Shown piece after piece: positions 1 through 25,262 of a stretch of DNA of 25,859 bases. Position 1 is the stretch's first letter; every line of letters begins with the position of its first letter. Below the pieces are notes generated by a model, which was not told where the DNA came from, made no database searches, and worked only from the letters and a program-made list of their open reading frames with translations. Location of the stretch: IMG/VR virus record IMGVR_UViG_3300042542_000798, positions 1 through 25,859 of that record. One strand, given 5' to 3'. Position numbers and translations under genes: made by a program. Source of the stretch: a virus.

Positions 1-56
1 GTCATAGACGCCTAAGGTCGCAAACTTTTGACCCACCCTCCATCTCTACACCCGCC

Positions 57-573: not shown

Positions 574-2403
574 TTAGAACTGTTCAAAGAGTGGATCATT
601 TATCTGTTCTCGGCGTTGGGTGTGGGCTTGTCGGGCTGTTTTGCGGACTACATGGTAGATCGTTTCGGCGCGTTCTTTGACTTCGGCCCACATGGCGTCG
701 AGGCTGATGGTTGGGTCGATATTGAGTTCTTCTAGCATCTTGAGGGCTTGGGTTAGTCGTTCGCCGCCTTGGATGTCTTGTGTGAACATTTTGTGTTGGT
801 CGTGGATGATGAGGTTGATTCGTTCGGGTATCCAGGTGTGCCGGTGCTTTTGTCGGATCATGACTAGACGTCCGTCTACTTTGGTCATCTGCCAGACCAG
901 GTCAACGTCATCGTTCTTTGCGCTGGTGCCTCGTGCGCCTTTCTTGAGGTCTTTGCCTGCGTGGTCTATGCGCATGAGTGATCGGCCTTCTTGTTTGAGG
1001 TTGATGGCTGTCCAGCGGTAGAAGTTGCGGACGGTGTCGGCGTCGTTTTCTGCGCCTTCGACTGCTCGTGCGAAGGTGTCTATGATTACGAGTTCGGCTT
1101 GGCAGGCTCGTGCTAGATCGCAGATTTGTTTTGCGCCTTCTGGTTTGTCGAGTGCGTCGATGGGTGGGAGTGAGGCGTAGTGGAGTCGTGTGAGGTCTGT
1201 GTCTTTGTTGTAGCCCATTGCGGTGAGTCGTTCGTAGAGAACAGCCTGTGACATTTCGTAGTCCATGTAGAGGACGTTGGTTGGTGGTTTGGGTTCGGCG
1301 AAGATCTCTTTACCTGTGGCTAGTGCGGCTGCGATGTAGAGCGCGAGCAACGATTTGCCTGTTCCGCCTGGTGCGAAGATGACGACGAGTTGGTTGCGTG
1401 GAATGATGGGTTCGATGAGCCAGTCTTCGGCTGGGAATGATTGGTTCCAGAAGTCTGTCCAGTTGATGAGTATGTTGTCGGTCTTTGATGGTTGCTCGAC
1501 TGGTACGAGTGCTTTGCCTTCTTGTAATAGTTTCTTGGCGAACGCTGATCGGTCGCCGTTGTGGTGCATGGCTGCGGTGTAGCCGAAGCGTGTGTATGCA
1601 CCAGCGGGCAGGTTCGTGATGCTGGTCGTGAAGACTCGGATGATGTCTTTGCCTTGCCATCCTGTAGTTGCGCTGGTGCCTTCGCGGATATCTTTGCCTG
1701 GTCGAATCCAGTGTGCTTCACCTGACTGATCAATGTGTGCGAGTGTCCATCCGTCTTGGCGTAATAGGTCAGGCCAAGTTGTCGCAGCGCAATATCTTGA
1801 CGCTGGTCCTTCTTCGGTGAGTATGTTTGCGGTTGACTCGTATGTCATCGGTATGTCATCGGCGGGTTTCTCGGTGAGGATCAACACCATCCACAACGGC
1901 ATGTCGGCTGGTTTGTGTTCGGCGATTGATCTGCCTTCAACCCATTCATAGGTCTTGCCATTCGGATGAATGGTTGGTGGTGCAAGGACTTGTCCGCCGA
2001 TGCCACGGATGTCGATGCCTTGTCCGAGTCGGCCTGATGCTTCGTTGCGGATCGGTTGGTCGGTGAGGAAGTAGATGTGTCGTCCGCCGGAGCCTGTGAT
2101 GACTTCGACTGTCTCTGGGAGTTTGCCGTTGAGTTCTTCTAGGTCTGCGAGTGTGTCTGATCCGCTGAACTGTTCACGGTCATCTATGTCGATGACGATT
2201 AGGTAGCGGTCACGGAAGTCGCCTGTCGCGATGCCTAGTCCGCAGTCTTTGAACTGTCCTTCGAACCATGTGCGAATTGTGGTCGGGTCGGATGTGGCTG
2301 CGTTCTGCCAGCCTTGCATCGGCGGTCGCTTCTCGCCTTGTTTGATTGGTACGACTCGAATGCCTTTGTTGGCGTATGCAAGTGCAGTTTGTAACACGCT
2401 CAT
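574..2403 (-). CDS. Bifunctional DNA primase-polymerase / RepA-type helicase
   Basis: The 609-residue protein joins two replication activities. Residues 1-180 are a Prim-Pol (archaeo-eukaryotic primase) domain: metal-binding aspartates in VIDIDD (72-75), GSGGRHIYF with H109, and GIDIRGIGGQVLAPPTIHP (129-147). Residues 320-535 are a RecA-like ATPase of the AAA_25/RepA kind, with Walker A APGGTGKS (344-351) and Walker B ELVIID (437-442). It probably unwinds the phage origin and lays down primers. The ATG at 2403 is preceded by GGAGAG at good spacing. No DNA polymerase of family A, B or C is visible, so this may be the main replication protein, with elongation by the host or by genes outside the window. 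The gene ends six bases from the iteron cluster, which supports an initiator role. Confidence 0.92.
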   Translation of the reverse strand: MSVLQTALAYANKGIRVVPIKQGEKRPPMQGWQNAATSDPTTIRTWFEGQFKDCGLGIATGDFRDRYLIVIDIDDREQFSGSDTLADLEELNGKLPETVEVITGSGGRHIYFLTDQPIRNEASGRLGQGIDIRGIGGQVLAPPTIHPNGKTYEWVEGRSIAEHKPADMPLWMVLILTEKPADDIPMTYESTANILTEEGPASRYCAATTWPDLLRQDGWTLAHIDQSGEAHWIRPGKDIREGTSATTGWQGKDIIRVFTTSITNLPAGAYTRFGYTAAMHHNGDRSAFAKKLLQEGKALVPVEQPSKTDNILINWTDFWNQSFPAEDWLIEPIIPRNQLVVIFAPGGTGKSLLALYIAAALATGKEIFAEPKPPTNVLYMDYEMSQAVLYERLTAMGYNKDTDLTRLHYASLPPIDALDKPEGAKQICDLARACQAELVIIDTFARAVEGAENDADTVRNFYRWTAINLKQEGRSLMRIDHAGKDLKKGARGTSAKNDDVDLVWQMTKVDGRLVMIRQKHRHTWIPERINLIIHDQHKMFTQDIQGGERLTQALKMLEELNIDPTISLDAMWAEVKERAETIYHVVRKTARQAHTQRREQINDPLFEQF

Positions 2404-6883: not shown

Positions 6884-7261
6884 CTATATCGGATCTGTGT
6901 GCGCGGATGCGGGATTGTCAGGAATGTTTTTGTAGGCGTTCCAAAGTTTGAGGAACTCGGTCATTGTCATGATCGCATACCAGTTGTCAACTTCGGCTGC
7001 GCCTTGTTTCTTCACGGCGCAAACACCATGATTCGTGCCACGGTTCTTCTGCTCAACTTCTAGTTCTCGAAGCCAACAACCGATGTCGTGTCTGCGCTGA
7101 TCCTTCACTTCTACGGTCAGGTCTTCGACACCGTCAATGTCGCCGCGGTCGTCGGACCAACCTGATCTGGCGCGTTCAGCCTTTGGGTGGCCGTGGTCGT
7201 GGAAGAACTTCGCCACCTGCAATTCGGCGCGCGTACCTTTTCTTCGTTGTGGATTTGACAT
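6884..7261 (-). CDS. Holliday-junction-resolvase-like PD-(D/E)XK nuclease
   Basis: The 125-residue protein begins MSNPQRRKGTRAELQVAKFF and contains ARSGWSDDRGDIDG followed by LTVEVKDQ. The glutamate in the first helix, the GDIDG aspartates and the E-x-K of VEVK form a PD-(D/E)XK site of the small resolvase-like kind. It probably resolves branched DNA before packaging or trims replication intermediates. I prefer the ATG at 7261, nine bases after AGGAGAG, to ATGs or TTGs further upstream. Its first 86 bases overlap the end of the whiB gene in another frame. Confidence 0.75.
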   Translation of the reverse strand: MSNPQRRKGTRAELQVAKFFHDHGHPKAERARSGWSDDRGDIDGVEDLTVEVKDQRRHDIGCWLRELEVEQKNRGTNHGVCAVKKQGAAEVDNWYAIMTMTEFLKLWNAYKNIPDNPASAHTDPI

Positions 7262-7550
7262 GAGTACCATCTCTCCTTCGTCGTCGTGTCTCAATGCGTC
7301 GCTCGACTGTTGTCAGTCCGCCCCACACGCCGACAGAATCGTTCTTGATAGCAAAGTCTAGACACTTTTCACGGACCACGCAGATGTCGCAAAGTTTCTT
7401 CGCTTCACGCACCGCATGCAAATATCTTTCGTGGAAGAAGATGTCTGTCCCTTCACCACGACAAGTTCCGTATTGTTGCCAATCTGGTCGGAGTAATTCG
7501 AAGACGTTCTTCGACTCCGACCAGACGTCAATGATTCTGTTTTCGCTCAT
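7176..7550 (-). CDS. whiB: WhiB-family iron-sulfur transcription regulator
   Basis: Four cysteines in WhiB arrangement are present: C30 in TCRGEG, then C54, C57 and C63 in LCDICVVREKC. These bind a [4Fe-4S] cluster. The family's GVWGG turn follows at about residues 74-78, with a basic, arginine-rich C-terminus for DNA or sigma-factor contact. WhiB proteins occur only in Actinobacteria and their phages, so this is the best host marker in the window. Start ATG 7550 overlaps the previous stop as TGATG. The C-terminal tail is longer than usual (124 residues in all), and its last 28 codons overlap the nuclease gene. Confidence 0.93.
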   Translation of the reverse strand: MSENRIIDVWSESKNVFELLRPDWQQYGTCRGEGTDIFFHERYLHAVREAKKLCDICVVREKCLDFAIKNDSVGVWGGLTTVERRIETRRRRRDGTHVKSTTKKRYARRIAGGEVLPRPRPPKG

Positions 7551-8339: not shown

Positions 8340-8464
8340 CGTGGTCCTTTCGTAAGTGCAGGGATAACGCAACCAGAAGGAGGTGACTGGTTGCGGTGCC
8401 ACATCAACCCTAGTGGGGAGCGCACCTGCCAACCTTAGCCGATGGGCTGAGATTAACGCTATAT
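8340..8464 (-). other. Non-coding leader of the secreted lysis gene
   Basis: This 125-base gap is one of the two longest gene-free stretches in the window. It holds the hairpin at 8368-8395 and a weaker inverted repeat near 8436-8453 (CTTAGCC with GGCTGAG, one mismatch). I see no convincing promoter and no gene in it. Confidence 0.5.
8368..8395 (-). promoter_or_regulatory. Hairpin with an anti-Shine-Dalgarno loop upstream of the secreted lysis gene
   Basis: CGCAACCAG (8368-8376) and CTGGTTGCG (8387-8395) form a perfect 9-bp stem with a 10-base loop. In the minus-strand transcript the loop reads UCACCUCCUU, the same as the conserved 3' end of bacterial 16S rRNA. Five loop bases (UCCUU) can pair with the AAGGA of the Shine-Dalgarno at 8345-8350, ahead of the signal-peptide enzyme. 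No U-tract follows, so it is not a typical terminator. Confidence 0.55.
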
Positions 8465-11510: not shown

Positions 11511-11732
11511 CTACGGATTAACGATGACTGGTGGTGGTGGCGGAGTAAAGTTGTTTGTTGTTGAGTCATATGTAAACCCAACTCCGGCGTATTGTTTGCC
11601 TGCTTTATCAAAGAAAGTCTCAACCCATGTGCCTGGGTAACGGTCAGGGTTTGCGTCAATAAACTCTTGTGTTACGACATGGACATCAACAACGACATTG
11701 TCATCGTTGATTTGTGCAAAGTATTGGCTCAT
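11511..11732 (-). CDS. Small fibre-associated hypothetical protein (73 aa)
   Basis: The 73-residue protein MSQYFAQINDDNVVVDVHVV with PGTWVETFFD, KQYAGVGFTYD and a PPPPPVIVNP end resembles a small protein that often accompanies tail-fibre genes in aquatic phages. The GxGFTYD segment and proline-rich end fit a short beta domain with a linker. ATG 11732 overlaps the sulfotransferase stop as ATGA. The exact role is unknown; chaperone or fibre tip component are both possible. Confidence 0.65.
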   Translation of the reverse strand: MSQYFAQINDDNVVVDVHVVTQEFIDANPDRYPGTWVETFFDKAGKQYAGVGFTYDSTTNNFTPPPPPVIVNP

Positions 11733-12397
11733 TGTTTTGTCCTAATTGTTGGCATGATTTTGTGCATATCGGTTAAACCCCACACGCTGTCATCATCGGT
11801 GCAAGTGTTCACAATGTGCGACAAGTCGTGTTGAAAGTTTCGTTGACCAATAAAATTATAGAACTCTTTCAGCAGGTTCGTTGTGTCGTTGCATAGACGC
11901 TCATACGACACGATGAAGCATTGTTGAGATATCTGTGACAAAAGGTTTTGTTGCGACATCACACATGGGTCGATTGTGGTTGTTTGTAAGTCAATGTTGA
12001 AGTTTGGTGAGTTGTCAATTAGGCGTTGGAATGATGCCAAGATTTCGTTCATGTCTCGATCCATGACGATGAACTTGGGTATGTAGCCGAGCGCGTTGAT
12101 TAGTACGGAAAGATTGTCGGGTGTTCCCCAGGTGAATGCTTTGTCAATGATGATTGGTTCGATTCTGTCGGCGTAAAACGCTGGGATGAGTGACCGCACC
12201 ACATTCTGTACAGCTGTCGGGTTTGGGTTTGCTTGTAAGGCTTGTCGGCTGTACCACATTTGATGTGTGTGATATAACGCATCGCAAACAGGCGACGATG
12301 ATGATGCAAAGATGTCAGGGTTTTGATTGAGAATACTTGTGAGAAGTGTTGAGCCTGAGCGTGGTAAACCTGCTAGAAAAATATATTCTTTACTCAC
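11729..12397 (-). CDS. PAPS-dependent sulfotransferase-like protein
   Basis: The 222-residue protein begins MSKEYIFLAGLPRSGSTLLT. GLPRSGST is the 5'-phosphosulfate-binding loop of sulfotransferases. DKAFTWGTPDNLSVL and KFIVMDRDMNEILASFQRL match the later region that contacts the nucleotide phosphate. It should move sulfate from PAPS to a sugar or tyrosine. To my eye its base composition is more AT-rich than its neighbours, a possible sign of recent transfer. It lies between the glycine-rich fibre and a small fibre gene, so it could modify the fibre or host surface glycans. GTG 12397 overlaps the fibre stop as GTGA. Confidence 0.85.
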   Translation of the reverse strand: MSKEYIFLAGLPRSGSTLLTSILNQNPDIFASSSSPVCDALYHTHQMWYSRQALQANPNPTAVQNVVRSLIPAFYADRIEPIIIDKAFTWGTPDNLSVLINALGYIPKFIVMDRDMNEILASFQRLIDNSPNFNIDLQTTTIDPCVMSQQNLLSQISQQCFIVSYERLCNDTTNLLKEFYNFIGQRNFQHDLSHIVNTCTDDDSVWGLTDMHKIMPTIRTKQ

Positions 12398-13440
12398 GAT
12401 GTTTTTACTCGAACAAATACGGCACCAGCCGCGCCGTTTCCACCTGTTTTTGCTGCGCCGTTGTTGCCTGTGCAGCCGCCCGACCCTGCCGCACCATAAT
12501 TTACACCGTTTGCGCCGTTTGCGCCTGCGCCGGCTCCGGCTACGCCGCCGTTCGGTGCAGCCGCTGGAGTGTTTGCACCGCCACCCGCTCCCGCTCCCGC
12601 GTAATAGGTTGCACCACCTATGAATGTGCTGATGTCTATGCCTCCACCACCCGCGCCACCGATACCTGAGTTTCCAGTTCCTGAGCCGTTTCCGCCGACA
12701 GCAACTGGAGAGCCACCACCCGCACCACCTGCAAAACCTGACGATGTACCACCGTTATTTCCTTGTGTTGATGCAACAGTTTTTCCACCTGATCCTCCGC
12801 CCGATGAGCCGTCTCCGCCGTTTGGTTGATCGGCTCGAACGCCGTTTCCATTTCCGCCACCCGCAGCACTAATCAAATTACCGATAGCAGACGTAAAACC
12901 AACCGCACCATCAGCAGCCGACACACCCGCACCGCCCGCTCCGACATCGACGGCTACAGTGCCAACAGCAAGATAGATTGTGTTGATTGCGTTAATTCCA
13001 ACTACGCCGCCGCCACCGCCGCCGCCACCCGAATACGAATATGATCCTGGTGCTGCTTGTGGTCCGCCGCCCGCTCCACCGCCACCGATCAAACAGACTT
13101 CCACGAGGCCTGCTGTCGTGACAACCAAATTGGCATCAGCACTAAAGGTGTGGACATTGTATGTTGAACCACCGATCGCAGTTCCCAACGCCGTTGACGC
13201 ACCACCAGAGATTGATGCGTAGGTTGCACCACCAACACTCGCCCACGCTGAACCGTTGAATACTTGTAGACCTGTAGCAGTCGAATATGCAACCATGCCT
13301 GTTGACGGTGACGGGATTGCGGATGATCGTGCTGCGGTGCCGGCATAAACCTGCACGGCCTGATCCATCAAGTACGTCTGGACATTATTCGAAGTCAATA
13401 CTTCGCCAGATGCGAATGTGCGATACCCTGCGCCAGCCAT
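12394..13440 (-). CDS. Glycine-rich tail fibre protein
   Basis: This 348-residue protein starts with a module (residues 1-66, from MAGAGYRTFASGEVLTSNNV to LQVFNGSAW) that typically attaches fibre-like proteins to the tail in actinophages. Residues 95-118 (VHTFSADANLVVTTAGLVEV) lead into a long glycine-rich domain (about 118-335) that ends GAAGAVFVRVKTS. Such domains can form polyglycine-type sandwiches that bind receptors at fibre tips. The first 66 residues are nearly the same as the small gene just upstream (13443-13652), which is a duplication. ATG 13440 follows the previous stop by two bases and has no good Shine-Dalgarno, so translation is likely coupled. Confidence 0.75.
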   Translation of the reverse strand: MAGAGYRTFASGEVLTSNNVQTYLMDQAVQVYAGTAARSSAIPSPSTGMVAYSTATGLQVFNGSAWASVGGATYASISGGASTALGTAIGGSTYNVHTFSADANLVVTTAGLVEVCLIGGGGAGGGPQAAPGSYSYSGGGGGGGGVVGINAINTIYLAVGTVAVDVGAGGAGVSAADGAVGFTSAIGNLISAAGGGNGNGVRADQPNGGDGSSGGGSGGKTVASTQGNNGGTSSGFAGGAGGGSPVAVGGNGSGTGNSGIGGAGGGGIDISTFIGGATYYAGAGAGGGANTPAAAPNGGVAGAGAGANGANGVNYGAAGSGGCTGNNGAAKTGGNGAAGAVFVRVKTS

Positions 13441-13550
13441 GTCTATACATTAACCCATGTTGAGCCGTTAAAAACTTGCAAACCTGTAGCAGTCGAATAT
13501 GCAACCATGCCTGTTGACGGTGACGGGATTGCGGATGATCGTGCTGCGGT
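13270..13550. repeat. 69-bp exact direct repeat in the fibre genes
   Basis: Bases 13270-13338 and 13482-13550 are identical over 69 bp, and flanking sequence is similar to the ends of both modules. Exact identity inside an otherwise diverged duplicate suggests a recent duplication or gene conversion. Confidence 0.85.
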
Positions 13551-13652
13551 ACCTGCATATACCTGAACCATCTGATCCATCAAGTAGGTCATGACATTAT
13601 TCGAAGTCAATACTTCGCCCGATGCGAATGTGCGATATCCAGCTCCAGCCAT
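13443..13652 (-). CDS. Stand-alone copy of the fibre N-terminal module
   Basis: The 69-residue protein (MAGAGYRTFASGEVLTSNNV at the start, FNGSTWVNV at the end) is a near copy of the first 66 residues of the next gene. A 69-bp stretch is identical (13482-13550 equals 13270-13338), an offset of 212 bp. AGGAGA precedes its ATG. It ends in TAG with a two-base gap to the next ATG, and the two genes are in different frames. It may be a truncated fibre that occupies attachment sites without a tip, or a leftover of module exchange. Confidence 0.75.
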   Translation of the reverse strand: MAGAGYRTFASGEVLTSNNVMTYLMDQMVQVYAGTAARSSAIPSPSTGMVAYSTATGLQVFNGSTWVNV

Positions 13653-14906: not shown

Positions 14907-17000
14907 CTACCTTCTTGGCGCAAAGCCGAGACGGTCAATCGCGAACGCATCAACCGCCGTGTACTGCTGCAACAGTTGCACAATCTGCCGCCCAGCCTCA
15001 ACACCGTTCGTCCCGATACCCGTGTTCACCACAATCTGCACAGATGGATCAGCTTGACCTGCGAACCCTGTGCCACTGCCTGCCGGTGTCGGCACAGTCG
15101 GCAAGGTTGGGATTGCGGCGGTAACTCCAGCAACTCTTGCAGCCTCAGCCACCTTGGCGATTGCTTCGGCAAGATTCTCGTAGGCTTCCGTCTCACGCTC
15201 GACTGCTTCTGTTAAACGCTCCGATGCTTCACGTTCCTTGACCTTGGCATCGTTGACGTCTTCAAGCAGTTTGTTGTAAGTGTCTGAACCGATGATCGCA
15301 CCGCTCACCGCTTCGTTCAGAACAAGTTGTGCATCTTTAAGTTTGCTAGTGGCTTCAAACTCTGAATCGCTTGCATCCGCGACAGCCAACTTCGCTTGTG
15401 CCAAGTCAATCTCTGCCTGGCGAATTGCTTGCGCACTCGATTCAGGATCTTTGCGCAGATCGGCAAGTGCCTTCTCGGCGTCAGCGACCGCAAACACCGA
15501 CTCCTCGACACGGAACCCAGCCTGCGCAACATTACGTTGAGCCGCCGACAGTTCTCGCTGAGCCTTCTTCGCCTGATCCGAATCCGCACCATAACCATTG
15601 ACCGCATCATTCAACGCCTTCTGCTTCGCGAACACATCGTCCTGCGCACCCTTCAAAGAATCGGCAGCCTTCGACGAAGCAGTCTGCGCATTGTTGAACG
15701 CCTTCTGCGCAGAGGTCGAAGACTTCAACGCATCCGTGTACTTCTCAAACTTCTGTTTCGCAGTCTCAACTGTCTTGGCTGCGCCACCTGTCTTCTTGTC
15801 CAAATTGCCGAGCGACGTTGACCAGTCATCTGTTGACTCTTTAGCCTTCGGCAGAACCTTGGTTCCCAATCTGTCTGTCTGTTCAATCAATGGTGAGATC
15901 TTGTTGCCGGACAGATTCAATGCCGCACTTGTATTGATTACCGATAGTCGCAGTTTGTCGAAGGTGTCAGTGACTTTGTTTGTTCGGTCAATGAGCATCT
16001 GCTCGACTGTGATGATTCCGTCGCCACCTGTGACCGACGAAGCGATCGCTCGCAGAACATCAATGAACGCAAATGCTGGTTTGAAGAAGTTGACGATTGC
16101 TTGTTCAAACTCAATTACCGACAGAATCATTCTCTCAATAGAGTTGATGACCGTAAACGAGACTGGACCCATTGCGGCAGCAAAGTATTTGATTGCACCA
16201 GTCAGACCTTCTTCTTTGAATCCATCGACTGCGGCTTTCAACGCTGGGATGATTCGCTTCTGCAAGAACTCTACGATCTTCTCAAATGCTGGCAGAAGCA
16301 AGAAGCCAACTGTCTCGACTACTTCGCCAAATGATGTGCGGAGAATCTTCACTCGCCCAGTGAATGTGTCGGCTGCGGTTGCGGCTGCACCACCAAACTG
16401 TTCTTCTAAAGTTTTGAGGATTGCTCCAAAGTCTTTTGACTTCTTTGCGCCTTCGTCCAACGGAATGCCGAGTCGAGTAAGGGCGCCGATCTGACCTGTC
16501 GCAGCACGACCCAATCCCAAAGTGACGGCTTCCAAGTCACGGCCTGTGGCTGCGCTTATGTCGAGTGCAAGTCCGAACAGACGTTGAGATTTTTCTAGAT
16601 CACCTGTGGCGCGGGCAAGGTTCCCGAACGCTGGTCGAAGTTCATCATCGGCGACACCTGTCGCCAACATTGCCTGCTCAATGAATGCTTCGGTTGCTTG
16701 CACTTGTGCGGTTGTTGCACCGGCTGAACGAATCAACTGTGCTTCAAGACTTTTCTGTGATGCTTCGTCGGCGGCTGCTGCTGCGACTGCTGCTGTCGCT
16801 GCACCTGCGACCGCGGTCAACGCACCGAGCGCAATGAACGCACCCTTCTTTACGAAGTCAAATGCCTTGCCAAGTCCAGCACCGATTGACTGAACCTTCT
16901 CGATTGACTGCTGTCCTTCACGGGCAAGATTCTTGAACGCCGTGATAGCACCGTCGGCGTTGCCGAGAATCTTTACAACGAATGTGCGTTCACCTGCCAT
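14907..17000 (-). CDS. Tail tape measure protein
   Basis: The 697-residue protein is the longest in the window and has the composition of a tape measure: an N-terminal helix (ILGNADGAITAFKNLAREG), hydrophobic segments (KGAFIALGALTAVAGAATA), and long alanine, lysine and glutamine-rich coiled coils (about residues 415-640: SSKAADSLKGAQDDVFAKQK, AQRELSAAQRNVAQAG). It sets tail length and may help DNA cross the membrane. At about 1.5 angstrom per residue it predicts a tail near 100 nm. No lysozyme or peptidase domain is seen. ATG 17000 has a weak Shine-Dalgarno. Confidence 0.92.
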   Translation of the reverse strand: MAGERTFVVKILGNADGAITAFKNLAREGQQSIEKVQSIGAGLGKAFDFVKKGAFIALGALTAVAGAATAAVAAAAADEASQKSLEAQLIRSAGATTAQVQATEAFIEQAMLATGVADDELRPAFGNLARATGDLEKSQRLFGLALDISAATGRDLEAVTLGLGRAATGQIGALTRLGIPLDEGAKKSKDFGAILKTLEEQFGGAAATAADTFTGRVKILRTSFGEVVETVGFLLLPAFEKIVEFLQKRIIPALKAAVDGFKEEGLTGAIKYFAAAMGPVSFTVINSIERMILSVIEFEQAIVNFFKPAFAFIDVLRAIASSVTGGDGIITVEQMLIDRTNKVTDTFDKLRLSVINTSAALNLSGNKISPLIEQTDRLGTKVLPKAKESTDDWSTSLGNLDKKTGGAAKTVETAKQKFEKYTDALKSSTSAQKAFNNAQTASSKAADSLKGAQDDVFAKQKALNDAVNGYGADSDQAKKAQRELSAAQRNVAQAGFRVEESVFAVADAEKALADLRKDPESSAQAIRQAEIDLAQAKLAVADASDSEFEATSKLKDAQLVLNEAVSGAIIGSDTYNKLLEDVNDAKVKEREASERLTEAVERETEAYENLAEAIAKVAEAARVAGVTAAIPTLPTVPTPAGSGTGFAGQADPSVQIVVNTGIGTNGVEAGRQIVQLLQQYTAVDAFAIDRLGFAPRR

Positions 17001-17016: not shown

Positions 17017-17730
17017 TCAGTTAGCAGTCATCCGTTTACGCAGGTCAGACCACTCACGTTGCATGTCTTTGTGAATCTCTTCTTGTGTCATGCCCTCATA
17101 CTGCGACAAGTCAAGTGGTGCTTCCCACCACTTCGGATCCATTGCGACTCTTGCCCACTTACCACTCTTCGTTTGACGAGTCGTGCGAATGTTCGGTGTG
17201 TCGAATCGTCGTGTCGGTGCAGCGATATCTGTGATGGTTGGATCAAGGAATCGCCAACCTGAATGATGTGTACGGAATGCTTGACCAGCTTCGTGCTGTG
17301 GCAAGAAGAAGATACGGGCAGGGTCTTTGGTTGCTGGGTCGCCTTTGAGACGAAGACGCTCATGTGTCTCGTACCAGACTTCTTCCCAGTTCTGCACCGG
17401 CACAGCCTGCTCAAACGGGACGACGATGTGCCAGTGTGGATCGTTGTCACGATGCGACCAGGTTGTGTAGGCGAAGTGTATGTACGATCCGAGATCTGCT
17501 TGCTCGAATGCTTCGCCGTCAAGGTCGGCAACCAACGCCCAGATGTGTGAGACGTTCGCGTTGCCACGGGTTGTGTGTTCACGGTAGGTGACTGGCGAGT
17601 ACAGCGAGCCGTCTGACTTGTTTGCTCGTTCTTGATGGTTGCCGAGGATGGATGCAAACTCCATCCAAGATTCGGCGATGGTCTTTGGGTAGACGGACTT
17701 GACCGATGGGAACCCAACGACCTCAAACAT
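17017..17730 (-). CDS. Stand-alone archaeo-eukaryotic primase (AEP)-like protein
   Basis: From ATG 17730 (a TTG at 17748 lies upstream) the product has 237 residues. It contains HIWALVADLDGEAF (D69 and D71, a DxD metal site), TTWSHRDNDPHWHIVVPF (H99/H101) and KDPARIFFLPQHEAG (R139). This order and spacing match AEP primase domains of the kind found in plasmid and phage Rep proteins. The rest (WWEAPLDLSQYEG, MQREWSDLRKRM) is not recognised and has no helicase domain. It is odd to find it in the tail module, next to a ribbon-helix-helix gene and behind a separate promoter. It overlaps the upstream stop by eight bases. Primase activity itself is inferred. Confidence 0.65.
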   Translation of the reverse strand: MFEVVGFPSVKSVYPKTIAESWMEFASILGNHQERANKSDGSLYSPVTYREHTTRGNANVSHIWALVADLDGEAFEQADLGSYIHFAYTTWSHRDNDPHWHIVVPFEQAVPVQNWEEVWYETHERLRLKGDPATKDPARIFFLPQHEAGQAFRTHHSGWRFLDPTITDIAAPTRRFDTPNIRTTRQTKSGKWARVAMDPKWWEAPLDLSQYEGMTQEEIHKDMQREWSDLRKRMTAN

Positions 17731-17863
17731 TGTGCAACCCAGTCTCAATGAACTGGCGAAGCAATTCAGACACGGTCACATCTTGTTTCTTGGCTTGACG
17801 CTCAATGAGTGTCTTGAGTTCTTTGTCAACTCTGATAGTGATGGTTGGATATTTGATTGTCAT
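17723..17863 (-). CDS. Ribbon-helix-helix (CopG/Arc-like) DNA-binding protein
   Basis: This 46-residue protein, MTIKYPTITIRVDKELKTLI then ERQAKKQDVTVSELLRQFIE, shows the ribbon-helix-helix pattern: a short beta strand (TITIRVD), helix A (KELKTLIERQAKKQ), a DVTVSE turn and helix B (LLRQFIETGL). Such proteins are dimeric repressors that insert the strand into DNA. ATG 17863 overlaps the previous stop as TGATG. The nearby 9-bp direct repeats around the -10 at 18073-18078 are plausible operators, which would make the cassette self-regulated; this is inference. Confidence 0.8.
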   Translation of the reverse strand: MTIKYPTITIRVDKELKTLIERQAKKQDVTVSELLRQFIETGLHNV

Positions 17864-18045
17864 CACATCACCACGATTGAATGGATAATTTCGTTGTCAA
17901 CAATCAGAAGGTTTGCGTAGTAGACCTTGGTTCCCTTTGGTCGTTGTACTGCTGCGAAGTGTGTCCAGCCTGTTGTGCGCATGCTTGGAGTGTGTTCTTT
18001 GATTTCAATAACTTTGAGTGTTTGGTTCTTGTGTTTGATTTGCAT
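17863..18045 (-). CDS. Hypothetical protein (60 aa), first gene of the RHH/AEP cassette
   Basis: ATG 18045 follows AAGGAGGT by four bases, the best Shine-Dalgarno of this region. The 60-residue product begins MQIKHKNQTLKVIEIKEHTP and ends VYYANLLIVDNEIIHSIVVM. It looks like a small beta-rich domain (QRPKGTKVYYANLLIVDN) and has no motif I recognise. It may be the first gene of a three-gene unit with the ribbon-helix-helix and AEP-like genes, to which it is coupled. Confidence 0.75.
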   Translation of the reverse strand: MQIKHKNQTLKVIEIKEHTPSMRTTGWTHFAAVQRPKGTKVYYANLLIVDNEIIHSIVVM

Positions 18046-18063
18046 GACTACCTCCTTAGGTAT

Positions 18064-18093
18064 GTAAGACAATCTATAGGAAGCGTAAGACAA
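18064..18093. repeat. 9-bp direct repeats flanking the -10 box (candidate operator)
   Basis: GTAAGACAA occurs at 18064-18072 and 18085-18093, a 21-bp step or about two helical turns. The -10 box TATAGA lies between them, touching the first copy. Ribbon-helix-helix repressors often bind such evenly spaced repeats, so these are candidate sites for the protein encoded at 17723-17863. Confidence 0.55.
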
Positions 18094-18101
18094 ACGCAAC
18101 T
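18073..18101 (-). promoter_or_regulatory. Candidate promoter of the RHH/AEP cassette
   Basis: On the minus strand a TATAGA (18073-18078) is a good -10 box, with TTGCGT (18094-18099) 15 bases upstream as a weak -35. Transcription from it would reach the ATG at 18045 after about 20 bases of leader with AAGGAGGT. An internal promoter inside a tail operon is unusual. Spacer is short, so confidence is moderate. Confidence 0.5.
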
Positions 18102-18115
18102 ATCTTTTCAAAGAT
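18102..18115. promoter_or_regulatory. Short inverted repeat upstream of the cassette promoter
   Basis: ATCTTT and AAAGAT are 6-bp inverted arms with a 2-base centre, just upstream of the candidate -35. It may be an activator or repressor site, or only AT-rich promoter DNA. A weak CCTTA/TAAGG hairpin at 18123-18137, just after the preceding stop, is too small to call a terminator. Confidence 0.3.
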
Positions 18116-18140: not shown

Positions 18141-18689
18141 CTAGCCGATGCCTAGTTCCTTGACCACACGGTCCATGCCATCTAGGTACTCCTTGGCGAT
18201 CGCGTTCTTGCGCTTGCGGACGGTCGGCCAGAAGAAGTATCCGGACTGACCTCGATGTCGCAAGAACTGCTTTGTCTTAGGTGTAGCACCACCACCAAAC
18301 TCCGCACCGAAGAACACATCGGCACGAGTTACTTTTGTTTTGCGTTTACTATTCGGACGAGACTTTGACACGAACGATTCTTTGCCACGCAACTTGATTG
18401 TCGGGATGCGGTCGTTGCTTGCGCGTAGTCCTTTGGCGACCTGTATCGCTTGACTGGCTCGACTGACCGTGGTCGCTTCAAGTTTGACTTTTGATTCCAA
18501 GTCTCTTGCCACCGCGTAGGCGACTTTGCGCATCTCTTTGTTGAACTGCGGAGATGCCTTCGAGAACTTGCGCAAAGTTTCAAACAAGTCCTTCACCACA
18601 ACTGTGTTGCCTGCGACTGCTGCGGTGCCGGCACGACCAAGAGTCCCACCTGTATCGCCTGGCATATTCGGGAATGCTGAGAAGGCCAT
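18141..18689 (-). CDS. HK97-gp10-like tail protein
   Basis: The 182-residue basic protein has the pattern of the HK97 gp10-like family: a helical middle (SPQFNKEMRKVAYAVARDLE) and a C-terminal part with VFFGAEFGGG, FLRHRGQSGYFFWPTVRK and YLDGMDRVVKELG. Members act in head-tail joining or tail completion. It lies after the chaperone instead of beside the connector, which is a little unusual. ATG 18689 has AAGGAT upstream and lies three bases after the stop of the frameshifted chaperone. Confidence 0.65.
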   Translation of the reverse strand: MAFSAFPNMPGDTGGTLGRAGTAAVAGNTVVVKDLFETLRKFSKASPQFNKEMRKVAYAVARDLESKVKLEATTVSRASQAIQVAKGLRASNDRIPTIKLRGKESFVSKSRPNSKRKTKVTRADVFFGAEFGGGATPKTKQFLRHRGQSGYFFWPTVRKRKNAIAKEYLDGMDRVVKELGIG

Positions 18690-20764: not shown

Positions 20765-21385
20765 CTACTCAACAACCAACAACTCAAGTGATGGCTGAAG
20801 TCTGAAGAATCTTACTCCATACAACTCACGCAACTTGTTGATGACAATCGGGAACCATTGACTCCAGCCTTCAGGGTTGATTGCTTTGCTGTCGCCGTAC
20901 TTGCCGAAGTTACTTATCCCACCTATCGACCCGTTGTCAACGCCGACCAAATTAATTTGTGATGCACCCATGTAGCAGGCAAGGTGCATCGCTATATGTG
21001 CCGAGGTGCCACCAACAACCAACACATCTGGGTCGGTTGGCCATCCGATGTCAGGTCGCCAGAATGGTGCGTGTGGTCGGAAGGTGATGTGATTACCTGA
21101 CCCGACATGGGTTGCGGTCATGTCTGATGCTTCTAAGTCCATGTCTGGAGTGACGAATATGCGGTCAGGGTTTTCATCAATTCGTTTGGCTGTAGTCGAG
21201 TTGGCTTTGGAATAATTTGACGCCGAATAGAAGTCGGCGATACCGAACCAGAATCCGACATCGTTGATCGACACAACAACCTTGTCATCAAAGAACTGTG
21301 GTGTCACCCAGTCCATACTCGGACCAGAACCACACACCCAGATCTCTTCACCTTTGTGACAGTCTTTCAAGTTTTGAAGAATCAT
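20765..21385 (-). CDS. MptE/DUF115-like Rossmann protein
   Basis: The 206-residue protein has EIWVCGSGPSMDWV, the glycine-rich loop of MptE-like and DUF115 proteins, with VVVSINDVGFWFG and LVVGGTSAHIAMHLACYMGA later, where INLVGVDN follows. Members bind nucleotides, and DUF115 relatives take part in flagellin and capsular glycan modification. Its place after four glycosyltransferase-like genes suggests glycan work. ATG 21385 overlaps the previous stop as ATGA. Confidence 0.7.
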   Translation of the reverse strand: MILQNLKDCHKGEEIWVCGSGPSMDWVTPQFFDDKVVVSINDVGFWFGIADFYSASNYSKANSTTAKRIDENPDRIFVTPDMDLEASDMTATHVGSGNHITFRPHAPFWRPDIGWPTDPDVLVVGGTSAHIAMHLACYMGASQINLVGVDNGSIGGISNFGKYGDSKAINPEGWSQWFPIVINKLRELYGVRFFRLQPSLELLVVE

Positions 21386-22047
21386 TCAGTCAACTTCGGC
21401 GGCCAATCCTCACCAGGTATCACACGACCAGATTCCAACAGTCTACGAAAATTGAACACTTCTTGTTCGGCTTGGTCGTCTCTTTGTGCAGTCAGTGCAT
21501 CATCGTGTCGAACCCAAGTCCACACACAACGCGAATCAAACGACGCTTCAACATTGTGTGACCGCATCTCGCACCAATGAATCCAATCAACATACTTGTG
21601 GGAACGGTACGGAATCTTCAACCAAGTCTTGCGACGAATCACCGCAAGTCCTGGCATACCGTTGTTTTGTTGATTGAGAAGATTCTTGTATTGTTCAGGT
21701 GTGCCGTGACACAATCCGCCGTCCCACCGACCGCGCACATTCACGGCATCACCTTGCAGAACTAGACCGTCAAAGAAGTTCGGATCCATAGTGTCATCGA
21801 CTGGAAGATGTGTACACCATTCGGCTGTTGCTTCACGCACGCCCACATTCACACACGGCCAGATGCGGTCATCCCAATACGGCACAACCTTCCACCAAGA
21901 TGGCACATCAACTCTTGCAGTCGTCACAAGAATCACCTCTTGCGGTTTGACCGTCAAGCCTTCAATCGAGGCAATGAATGCTTCACCGAACCGATCCCAA
22001 TACTTCTGATCAAACGGTGAGATGATCGCTACCGGCGACGGTACCAC
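21382..22047 (-). CDS. GT-A-like glycosyltransferase
   Basis: The 221-residue protein has SPVAIISPFDQKYWDRFGEA at the start, a strand EVILVTTARVDVP, and WCTHLPVDDTMDPNFF, where DD is the probable metal and sugar-nucleotide site of GT-A folds. A later WIHWCEMRSHN and WVRHDDAL also fit. GTG 22047 is the only reasonable start and overlaps the GT17-like gene by 19 bases. Donor and acceptor sugars cannot be predicted. Confidence 0.65.
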   Translation of the reverse strand: MVPSPVAIISPFDQKYWDRFGEAFIASIEGLTVKPQEVILVTTARVDVPSWWKVVPYWDDRIWPCVNVGVREATAEWCTHLPVDDTMDPNFFDGLVLQGDAVNVRGRWDGGLCHGTPEQYKNLLNQQNNGMPGLAVIRRKTWLKIPYRSHKYVDWIHWCEMRSHNVEASFDSRCVWTWVRHDDALTAQRDDQAEQEVFNFRRLLESGRVIPGEDWPPKLTE

Positions 22048-22763
22048 GACAACGGAGCCTTCCCTTCAGCAATCCACGGAATCCACGAATCATCCATCTG
22101 CACCTCAATCAACTGTTCGCCGCGTATCGAGCGACCGACCCGATAGTTCTCGGCCATAAACACATCAGGGTTCTCGACCATGAGTTCTTGGTGAGAGAAC
22201 GAACGCATCTTGTTCGCAGCCCATTCAGGTCCACCCATCCAAGACACATGCCAACCTGAATGAATCTGATGCAACTGATGACGCAACGATCTCATAGTTT
22301 GCGCATCACCAGTTCGACTACCCCACGGACCCGCAACCATTGTGTGTTCATCAGATAGACGCCAATACGCCGACATCACGAGACGCTTCATCATGTAACC
22401 ATGCCAACCAGTTTTCAAAGTCTCTATATCGTTCGGCGACCAGATCTCATCACAATCCGCGACCGTCACAATGTCTTCGGCTTCTGGTGCGAACTGTCGC
22501 AACACGGTGAAGAGATGGTTGCGTTGCGCATGTTCAGCCGACCAGCTGCGAAGCGAAGCATCTGGTTCATAGATCTCATAGTGGATTTTGTCGCGCCATT
22601 TGTAGAACCTGTCAAGGTCAATTCCGTGTGCTTTGGGTTGACCCATGAAAGTTGTTGCCGACTCGACAATGATGACCTTGTCTACGACATCACCGATCTC
22701 TGACAGTCGGCATTCGAGCATGTCGTGTTCTTGATTGAACAGGATGCAATCAAACACTCTCAT
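22029..22763 (-). CDS. Family-17-like glycosyltransferase
   Basis: The 244-residue protein matches glycosyltransferase family 17 (N-acetylglucosaminyltransferase type): MRVFDCILFNQEHDMLECRL, VVDKVIIVESATTFMGQPKA, DIVTVADCDEIWSPND and HSGWHVSWMGGPEWAANKM. Aquatic phages often carry this gene. It probably adds a sugar to a phage structural protein or host glycan. ATG 22763 overlaps the methyltransferase stop as ATGA. Confidence 0.85.
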   Translation of the reverse strand: MRVFDCILFNQEHDMLECRLSEIGDVVDKVIIVESATTFMGQPKAHGIDLDRFYKWRDKIHYEIYEPDASLRSWSAEHAQRNHLFTVLRQFAPEAEDIVTVADCDEIWSPNDIETLKTGWHGYMMKRLVMSAYWRLSDEHTMVAGPWGSRTGDAQTMRSLRHQLHQIHSGWHVSWMGGPEWAANKMRSFSHQELMVENPDVFMAENYRVGRSIRGEQLIEVQMDDSWIPWIAEGKAPLSWYRRR

Positions 22764-23329
22764 CTTTGTGACTTACCTACGAGCAGGATGCGGTTGTCGT
22801 TCATGACAATCTTTGTGTCAATAGAACAATGTTTCTCAAACTCGGTTTGCAAAGTGTTGATGTCAGGGATGTGCCAAGTTGTGTCGGCAGGAATGTATTC
22901 AACAAGTATCAGCCAGTTACATCTTGTGGATGCTTCTAGGATTACTTCTTGCCAGTTTTCTTGCATGACCAACGTGTGCGACATGACCGCGCAATCGTAC
23001 CCACCTGACTTCGCTGCGGTCAGACCGTCACCGACACGGAAGTCGATGTCAGGGTAGGACGCTTTTGCTTTGCGTATCGCAGTCGCTGAGATGTCGTAGG
23101 CGACAACCCTTCTACCGCGTAACGCCATCAGATGTGTTTGTGTACCTTTACCGCAACCGATGTCCAGTATTGAACCAAATGAGAACGCCGACATGACTGT
23201 TGAGAGCAGACGATATCCCATCGGTCGCACATCGGACTGATACCAAGCATCAAACTCTTGAACATCTTCGGCTTGATACATCTCATCAAGTTTGAATCCG
23301 TCTTGCAAGTAGTCGTGATACTTAGCCAT
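22760..23329 (-). CDS. SAM-dependent methyltransferase
   Basis: The 189-residue protein carries motif I FGSILDIGCGKGTQTHLMA, then RVVAYDISATAIRKAK (acidic residue for SAM ribose) and DCAVMSHTLVMQE. It is a class I methyltransferase of the small-molecule or sugar kind, not a DNA methylase. It probably methylates a glycan or a sugar nucleotide made in this island. I chose ATG 23329, which overlaps the previous stop as TGATG, over GTG 23368. Confidence 0.8.
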   Translation of the reverse strand: MAKYHDYLQDGFKLDEMYQAEDVQEFDAWYQSDVRPMGYRLLSTVMSAFSFGSILDIGCGKGTQTHLMALRGRRVVAYDISATAIRKAKASYPDIDFRVGDGLTAAKSGGYDCAVMSHTLVMQENWQEVILEASTRCNWLILVEYIPADTTWHIPDINTLQTEFEKHCSIDTKIVMNDNRILLVGKSQR

Positions 23330-23982
23330 CAATCCCAACTCAGGTTGATTCGGCGTTGCAGATCCCACTGCCCTGCGTCAAGTCGTGCGTTGCGAAGTTT
23401 GAACAACTCCATGTTCGCTCGGAAGCTCTCACGATTCTTGTTAAACAGCGACGGATCCGACAGCAACGTGGACGAGTTGTCGTGATAGACCAGCGCATCA
23501 GACTTGACAATCTTCTTGTGTAACCGTGTTGCGCGACGCTCATAGTCGTTGTCTTCGAAGTATGCAGGATGGAATGCTTCGCAGAACAGTCCAACATCTT
23601 TGACAACTTCGGATCCGATCCAAGCACAACACCAACCAGGTTCACCCGCTAGATGTATCTCGTCTATGTCTGACTCTTTGTAGAACTTCTCTAGATGTCC
23701 GTGACCGAAGTGTGCATCTGAGTTGAGCAGAATCCAACCTGTTGCGAACGGTGTCATCTTGATTCCAAGATTCCACGATGTTGCCACACCAAGGTTTGAT
23801 GGCATGTCCATGATGTATCGGTTCTGAATCTTTGTGCTGCGTGGCAGAACCAAACAGTCTTTGGCGATCCGACCGCCGTTGTCAATGATGATCAGATTCT
23901 CAACTGGGTAGTCGATTGACTTGATGCACCTTTCAAGCAGGTCGTATCGGTTGAGGACAGGGATGACTATGACCGGCACCAT
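23329..23982 (-). CDS. Family-2-like glycosyltransferase
   Basis: From ATG 23982, eight bases after AGGAG, the 217-residue product begins MVPVIVIPVLNRYDLLERCI. It has LIIIDNGGRIA, GVATSWNLGI and WILLNSDAHFG, the signature and DxD-like site (NSD) of GT2 enzymes. FHPAYFEDNDYERRA is the usual acceptor-side motif. It overlaps the end of the GT4-like gene by 16 bases. The acceptor is unknown. Confidence 0.85.
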   Translation of the reverse strand: MVPVIVIPVLNRYDLLERCIKSIDYPVENLIIIDNGGRIAKDCLVLPRSTKIQNRYIMDMPSNLGVATSWNLGIKMTPFATGWILLNSDAHFGHGHLEKFYKESDIDEIHLAGEPGWCCAWIGSEVVKDVGLFCEAFHPAYFEDNDYERRATRLHKKIVKSDALVYHDNSSTLLSDPSLFNKNRESFRANMELFKLRNARLDAGQWDLQRRINLSWD

Positions 23983-25262
23983 GCGGACAACTCCTTCATT
24001 GTTGGCTTCCAATACTGCTCAAATACTTGATCGGCTTCGTACCCTAGGGCATGGGTGATCGCGTCCTGAGAACGGCTCCTAGGCGCGTTATAGGCCGCCT
24101 TGAGAGCGTTCACGATGTCAGGCACATTCGGTGTGAAGAACCATGACTTCTGTGCCGCATCCCACCACGGCTGACCCTCCACCGTCCAGCCGTCACCAAC
24201 CAGTTCAGGTTGTGCCGTGAAGTTGCTGACAATCACTCGACACCCGCAAGCTTGCGCTTCAATAACAGGAATGCCGAACCCTTCGCCCATACTGCAGGCA
24301 AGAAGAACATCGGACGCCGTGTACATCGCAGCCATCACATTCTGTGGCAACGAATGACGGTACGCATACTGATCGACAACCTTGTACTTGTCTTTCGATA
24401 CACCGACCGCATCCAACAATGTTGGCAAACTAATCCCAGCCATCGCACCATCAGGTTCCGTGTACAGATACAGCACAGCATCAGGGTGATCTTTGGCGAA
24501 GATTGAGAACGCAAGAATGTTCTCGGCCCAAGCCTTCCGCGCAGGTTGCGAACCTTTGTTGGTCGCAACCATAGACACAACGAATCGGTCTTCTTCCCAA
24601 CCCATGAACTCTCGACCAGTCATCTTCTGACCGTTTGCCAATGTCACCGACTCGGTCGGTTTGAACACCGGCTCGATTGCGTGTGGAACATACAAGTGTT
24701 CAACGCCTGCTGTCTCCAACATTCGTGAACCGAACTTTGACATTGCGATCGGTCGCACGTTCTCACGCGCACACCAAGCCAACACTTCTGGTGGTGTTGG
24801 CTGATGATCAATCGGAACCCATGACGCAATGTTCTTCAAAGTTTTCAACGAGTCAGACTTCAACACCCAAGTGTCGAAGAGTGTGACGAGCAGTGTCGGC
24901 GTTGATAGGTCTTGGTTCGCCCATTCCATTGTGTGCGCGACAACTACATCGTCGGAGTATGCAGCCAATCCTTGTGGATAGATTTTGAATCCGTTCCAAG
25001 TTGATGTCGAGCCTGCGAGGCCGTACATCGCGTGGACTGCTACTTGGTGGTCTTCTTTCGCGAGCCTTTGGATGACTTGCGCGGTTTGCTGTCCGTATCC
25101 TGTGGAAGCCCAAGGTGCGTTGGAATACCAGACGATCCTGAGTCGGTCGGGATTGGTAGGTCGGACACTTCCAACGAGTGCGCTACGCCCGCTCGGAGCA
25201 AACGCTCCGCTAAGGCTCCTGGCATCTCCACTGGGACGCCCTTCACGATTACGGTTTGCCAC
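23967..25262 (-). CDS. GT4-like glycosyltransferase (GT-B fold)
   Basis: The protein has the GT-B order: RLRIVWYSNAPWASTGYGQQ (binding loop, about residues 41-60), RPIAMSKFGSRMLETAG, LYVPHAIEPVFKPTE and LACSMGEGFGIPVIEAQACG (EX7E). It uses a nucleotide sugar. The only start in this frame is GTG 25262, which gives 431 residues; the first 40 (RNREGRPSGDARSLSGAFAP) look like the out-of-frame shadow of the overlapping small gene. Either the enzyme has a strange extension or it begins at a non-standard codon near RLRIVW. It shares its Shine-Dalgarno with the small gene. Confidence 0.8.
   Translation of the reverse strand: MANRNREGRPSGDARSLSGAFAPSGRSALVGSVRPTNPDRLRIVWYSNAPWASTGYGQQTAQVIQRLAKEDHQVAVHAMYGLAGSTSTWNGFKIYPQGLAAYSDDVVVAHTMEWANQDLSTPTLLVTLFDTWVLKSDSLKTLKNIASWVPIDHQPTPPEVLAWCARENVRPIAMSKFGSRMLETAGVEHLYVPHAIEPVFKPTESVTLANGQKMTGREFMGWEEDRFVVSMVATNKGSQPARKAWAENILAFSIFAKDHPDAVLYLYTEPDGAMAGISLPTLLDAVGVSKDKYKVVDQYAYRHSLPQNVMAAMYTASDVLLACSMGEGFGIPVIEAQACGCRVIVSNFTAQPELVGDGWTVEGQPWWDAAQKSWFFTPNVPDIVNALKAAYNAPRSRSQDAITHALGYEADQVFEQYWKPTMKELSAWCRS

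Follow-up and report, generated by a model that had tools for sequence, protein, structure and literature searches.

Acr-aca operons place an aca gene behind their acr genes, and the Aca protein binds inverted repeats within the core promoter; ten families of HTH proteins, Aca1-10, have been described (PMC9410906), and at the time of the Aca9 report the HTH domain marked every known Aca (PMC7648647). The anti-defence islands formed by early genes of archaeal viruses have a conserved regulatory sequence before small, poorly conserved genes, as well as a dedicated small repressor (PMC11065993). In pMV158, one transcript carries the gene of the RHH protein CopG and the rep gene behind it (PMC5717011).

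We analyzed a locus that resembles all three in a 25.9-kb virus fragment (25,859 nucleotides, hereafter the window, which denotes the whole stretch; Table 1). By sequence comparison, the mobile unit in this locus is a promoter with operator-like sites, one or more small genes and an RHH gene (18115-17723), and it excludes the AEP gene that follows. We consider it fairly probable that this unit is an autoregulated accessory cargo cassette, a candidate for anti-defence, which has displaced the promoter of the AEP gene. Like acr-aca operons, it consists of variable small genes followed by a conserved gene for a DNA-binding regulator, its predicted operator lies within the core promoter, and related phages vary in the content and presence of the unit. 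In contrast to them, its regulator is an RHH protein (CopG/Arc fold) and not a HTH protein, its cargo has no known Acr relative, and it appears to displace the promoter of a core primase, to which it is translationally coupled. Since the known Acas are HTH proteins, we do not file the cassette regulator as an Aca, but propose that it works like one. The likeness to the archaeal-virus islands lies in the conserved sequence before small, poorly conserved genes and in the small predicted repressor; the cassette differs from them in occurring once per genome examined, in its bacterial-type promoter and in its constant last RHH gene. As in pMV158, the RHH gene (46 aa in the window) precedes and overlaps a replication-type gene; unlike there, this gene codes for an AEP protein instead of a RepB-type initiator and is a core gene of the phage, whereas the RHH gene is dispensable and movable.

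The three short coupled genes that a sequence-only reading had noticed before the tape measure gene are real: they lie on the minus strand, ORF60 and the RHH gene share the sequence TGATG, and the RHH and AEP ORFs overlap by 8 nt. Its grouping of RHH and AEP as a single cassette does not stand, since AEP occurs with or without RHH in the synteny of 208 loci.

Table 1. Positions of the features of the locus and of related features in the window.
Feature	Positions	Strand	Basis
Second primase, Prim-Pol + AAA_25 helicase-type replication protein	574..2403	-	PF09250 4.7e-42, PF13481 3.9e-28
Spot 2, empty in the window; cassette site of cousin phages	8433..8464	-	Comparison with cousins
Tape measure protein, right neighbour	14907..17000	-	PHROG tail length tape measure 9e-5
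Stand-alone AEP-fold primase/polymerase-like protein, 237 aa, tail-module core gene outside the mobile cassette	17017..17730	-	PHROG DNA primase 1.9e-12
RHH (CopG/Arc-type) protein, 46 aa, terminal cassette gene, predicted autorepressor	17723..17863	-	Pfam RHH_1; alignment
Cargo gene ORF60, 60 aa, family F01	17863..18045	-	Swapped for or joined with other small genes in relatives
Shine-Dalgarno AAGGAGG of ORF60	18051..18057	-	Read in sequence; kept in spot-1 cassettes
Two operator-like sites TTGTCTTAC	18064..18093	-	Sequence comparison
Cassette promoter, -35 TTGCGT (18099-18094), 17-nt spacer, -10 TAGATT (18076-18071)	18071..18099	-	Sequence reading; recurs in relatives
Conserved upstream cassette element AACCCTTAC..AATAAGGCTC, A/T-rich, and left junction after the neck stop codon	18097..18140	-	Common to cassettes of both spots
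Neck/tail-completion-like protein, left neighbour	18141..18689	-	PHROG phrog_5 0.0023, weak

The AEP gene of the tail module

Searches of viral contigs identified 529 relatives of the neck-like protein; they also gave close relatives (80-96%) and another two groups that are about 42% identical. Together they yielded 208 distinct loci that include a neck as well as an AEP gene, in three groups about 42% identical to each other; only exact copies were removed to obtain these counts, and as all relatives are metagenome contigs, close ones may be over-sampled. The order neck, AEP, tape measure was found in 208/208 loci, wherever a tape measure gene was present; in alignments the AEP and tape measure genes are 13-21 bp apart. 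Present in all 208 loci, AEP is an ancestral core gene of the tail module, where the sequence-only reading had expected no such gene. A recent capture of AEP was rejected, given its presence in three groups about 42% identical. No AEP is annotated at the neck-to-tape-measure junction of phage phiPsal1 (from gene 17 to the tape measure), and a search of a collection of papers for primases in tail modules found nothing pertinent.

A sequence search of solved structures with the AEP protein gave no match. Structure prediction (AF2, 39 aligned sequences) produced a model of middling confidence (pLDDT 67.7, pTM 0.60), poor past residue 166; an earlier model built on a shallow alignment had a pLDDT of 35. 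The best fold match of the model was the AEP domain of cyanophage S-2L PrimPol (6zp9; Foldseek 4.1e-5), which aligned with Z 8.0 over 140 residues at an rmsd of 3.8, with 16% identity over the aligned part. The next matches were mostly AEPs (CAPP, PriS, LigD Pol), with the unrelated chain HP0184 at rank 2. The S-2L domain is thus the closest solved fold, from which the window protein differs in that it stands alone with 237 aa, lacks a helicase domain and is encoded in the tail module. Residues D69/D71 (the hDhD motif) are kept in 314/315 AEP homologs, and H99, H101, K135, D136 and R139 are invariant across the complete ones; the assignment of H99/H101 as the His motif and of D136 as the third acidic motif was made by inspection. 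The sole homolog with a changed catalytic DxD (VVEDEEEKF, L326:5001-5729) reflects either a true loss or a sequence error. The model supports an AEP fold with its catalytic residues, in agreement with the original description of the protein as AEP-like, and we predict that it has primase activity. We also considered a HUH/Rep protein, suggested by a weak Pfam match to REP_ORF2-G2P (E 0.045), and rejected it, as AEPs were at the top of the fold search and RepB reached a Z of 3.4.

The second Prim-Pol that had been noted in the window was confirmed by profile search (Table 1), and a Prim-Pol helicase is encoded in several relatives too, so that phages of this clade seem as a rule to have two AEP enzymes each.

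Where the cassette is absent, AEP probably has its own transcript, since the promoter-like pattern TTGNNN-15..18-TANNNT occurs in 136/136 distinct cassette-less leaders of all three groups; shuffled leaders contain it in 7-9% of cases. The promoter-like leader of cassette-less relatives, TTGnnTtnGGCTGnGGnTTCGCTAnCCTG..GGAGG (corresponding to the 17731-17790 region; e.g. L002:1553-1610), is conserved between the groups, although their proteins are 42% identical. A hairpin in this leader (AGGAT/ATCCT) was also considered; its compensatory change is limited to one sequence and the same bases fit the promoter, for which reason we prefer the latter.

Distribution and control sites of the cassette

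In group 1, to which the window belongs, the cassette is present between neck and AEP (spot 1) in 22/84 loci, with a neck-AEP interval of 408-806 bp; the 62 other loci have 53-59 bp there, and in groups 2 and 3 spot 1 holds the cassette in 0/124 loci. The inconstancy of the cassette next to a constant AEP argues for an accessory unit. The sequence-only reading had named as refuting evidence that all relatives carry these genes as part of the tail module: this is so for AEP, and not for the RHH gene and the 60-aa gene. Its notion of a self-regulated mini-cassette with its own promoter and operator-like repeats holds for the promoter/operator, small gene(s) and RHH, a unit that some relatives have and others lack. 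The interference system that it also suggested would correspond here to a candidate anti-defence cassette. On a tree of AEP (80 rows) presence of the cassette changes at least 18 times, 14 of them forced by well-supported branches, and the changes are no fewer than under shuffled labels; this unclustered pattern again suggests an accessory element. The nearest relatives of the window lack the cassette.

Cousin phages have an equivalent cassette, ending in the same type of RHH, at a second spot, flanked by an 87-aa gene and a lysozyme-like gene, in 6/13 contigs that were not picked for having one. Spot 2 is empty in the window and in seven group-1 genomes. The recurrence of promoter/operator, cargo and terminal RHH at this second spot is a further argument for an accessory cassette.

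At spot 1, the left junction lies just 3' of CGGCTGA, within the spacer of the AEP promoter (L104, L146), and consequently the -10 box of that promoter is lost. At the right junction, the AEP leader and start supply the codons for LHNV, the C-terminus of RHH; the RHH proteins of cousins have different C-termini. The GC content of the cassette is 41.7% vs 51.9% in the phage, within the lowest 0.4% of windows. We count this low GC, together with the low pN/pS values given below, in favour of an accessory cassette, though low GC equally fits any recently gained gene.

These observations bear on the proposal that RHH and AEP form a plasmid-like replication-control unit of the CopG-RepB type, either a captured replicon or a satellite, in which RHH would repress both itself and the overlapping, replication-starting AEP gene. 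It draws on the AEP fold and on the 8-nt overlap of the RHH gene with the AEP start, with a presumably shared transcript as for CopG in pMV158. The constant linkage of RHH and replication gene seen in CopG-RepB is however missing: 62/84 group-1 loci and 124/124 loci of groups 2 and 3 have AEP without RHH, the RHH gene being absent from 74% of the close relatives that retain AEP. Moreover, the RHH cassette of cousins precedes the lysozyme-like gene and not AEP, and cassette-less AEP genes have a promoter of their own. With AEP ancestral, synteny largely refutes a plasmid-type replicon, and we regard it as very improbable.

The -10 box, Shine-Dalgarno and 9-bp repeats read from the sequence are indeed present, and the promoter recurs in relatives with a similar architecture (TTGCAT/TTGCAA, about 17 nt, TAGATT/TATATT); a loose pattern finds it in 38/43 cassettes. 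A generic promoter scan of the window did not list it. Its predicted transcription start is near 18064. The whole window has just two exact copies of the 9-mer TTGTCTTAC, at a spacing of 21 bp, with one copy (18093-18085) in the -35/-10 interval and the other (18072-18064) over the predicted start. Both are variants of the pseudo-palindrome TTGT-CTT-ACAA. The predicted operator is the pseudo-palindrome TTGTCTTACAA placed in the -35/-10 interval, of which an inverted form was found too; L181 and L302 have the inverted form TTGTAAGACAA, which fits a two-fold symmetric RHH site. The operator is present in 41/43 non-identical cassettes (the remaining two have one-mismatch forms) and in 0/9 of the empty close relatives, a difference that speaks for a cassette with its own control sites. 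In spot-2 cassettes (e.g. L297, L307, L312), we observed a leader hairpin right 5' of the first cargo gene, with apparently compensatory changes (ATCAAGGAAACACCTTGA, ATCGGGGAAACGCCCCGA); the spot-1 cassette of L150 has AGAGGAAACGCCTCT.

The RHH gene is terminal in the cassettes read, behind one to three cargo genes with start/stop overlap. The window protein matches Pfam RHH_1 (4e-6, 27.0 bits vs a cut-off of 20.5), and cousin proteins score 28.6 (L163), 23.2 (L307) and, below the cut-off, 18.9 (L182). In L310:381-640, an RHH gene comes right after a one-mismatch operator, in an apparently cargo-less cassette. By analogy with acr-aca operons, RHH would repress the cassette promoter through the operator-like sites.

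Cargo genes and proposed mode of action

We clustered the cargo proteins by pairwise BLAST and obtained about 20 families of small proteins across the 43 non-identical cassettes; clusters F02, F13 and F23 were excluded from this count as flanking genes or spurious, and the gene chains of L164, L178, L181 and L302, missed by automatic reading, were read by eye. Families F01 and F04 occur at both spots. Cargo varies behind identical upstream sequence, as in L162 and L008, whose 140 identical nt end at the start codon and lead into different cargo, and this also argues for an accessory cassette. Similarly, L146 and L152 have an 86-nt promoter and 45/46 RHH residues in common and differ in cargo. 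The pN/pS values of 0.064 for ORF60, 0.125 for F03 and 0.25 for RHH reflect purifying selection, and hence these are real proteins.

The cargo gave no match above chance in Pfam, PHROGs, PADLOC or NCBIfam, and no match to known anti-defence families or to toxin families. F06 has distant kin of unassigned function in other phages and plasmids; no such kin were found for F01 and F05. We count the want of a known-family match, and the RHH protein in place of the HTH of Acas, against an anti-defence role.

If the unit were a type II toxin-antitoxin system, the small gene would be the toxin, and RHH the antitoxin and autorepressor. RHH antitoxins do autoregulate, and profile searches gave weak, sub-threshold matches to RelB/CopG antitoxins. 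However, the RHH proteins have 46-53 aa, with little room for a toxin-binding tail; one RHH type is combined with about 20 unrelated cargo families, often as two or three cargo genes; toxin family matches are absent; and RHH seems to stand without cargo in L310. We find this explanation decidedly unlikely.

Lone transcription units are common in phage late modules. The cassette could thus be a neutral or metabolic moron, its small genes serving host physiology, superinfection exclusion or the like from their own promoter. Cargo functions are unassigned, and the C-rich small proteins F04 and F05 could be metal-binding regulators, as a moron would allow; yet fast cargo exchange at two fixed spots and strong signals of autoregulation suit arms-race genes better, which leaves a moron rather unlikely.

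The proposed autoregulated accessory cassette builds on features that can be established by comparing sequences: the anatomy of the unit, its presence and absence, cargo exchange, two spots, conserved control sites and purifying selection. Its cargo is most likely an anti-defence or host-takeover protein, the anti-defence function being suggested by analogy. We propose that the conserved promoter, with its operator-like sites, has one to three exchangeable small genes under its control. The promoter would fire at once when unbound DNA enters, producing cargo and RHH; RHH would then bind the operators and shut the promoter, with an early burst of cargo followed by repression as the presumed course. 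On this view, the unit settled at spot 1 in the leader of a resident core AEP gene, where it took away the -10 box of the AEP promoter and joined the end of RHH to the start of AEP, which couples the translation of AEP to RHH. Repression by RHH would also limit read-through into the primase and tape measure genes, which the cassette promoter would otherwise drive.

More tentatively, such cassettes may represent an unrecognised class of anti-defence island of actinobacterial phages, with about 20 unnamed families, one promoter/operator and an Aca-like RHH; upon insertion, a core stand-alone primase and perhaps the tape measure too would come under cassette control. The shared promoter and RHH serve as a tag retrieving these small-protein families from uncultured, probably actinobacterial phages. 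The candidate anti-defence genes obtained in this way form a short list open to testing, for bacteria whose phage defence is little known, and the acr-aca principle would extend to a second repressor fold. A stand-alone primase with its own promoter, catalytically intact by its residues and conserved in the tail module beside a Prim-Pol helicase, raises the question of what a phage would use a primase for late in infection or in connection with the virion.

The phage, its host and other genes of the window

A search of a phage collection revealed no close relative of the window among named phages; the nearest, through the adaptor protein, was Pontimonas phage phiPsal1 (45.5%). The window encodes a WhiB protein (7176-7550; PF02467 5.7e-18), the single item of evidence used here for host and lifestyle. 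WhiB is a marker of actinobacterial phages (PMC6802176) and points to a host among the actinobacteria, which is probably that of the window phage. With either of two queries, no relatives were found in bacterial genomes, and for this reason no host was assigned from prophages.

Elsewhere in the window, a sulfotransferase-like gene (11729-12397; PF13469 3.8e-12) is flanked by tail-fibre-like genes, and an adjacent ORF pair (12394-13652) duplicates a fibre-like start, with N-termini (MAGAGYRTFASGEVLTSNNV..) that are nearly identical. Between the major capsid and adaptor genes (20765-25262) there is a row of non-structural genes, glycosyltransferase-like ones among them, and cousin phages and phiPsal1 have a row of this kind too.
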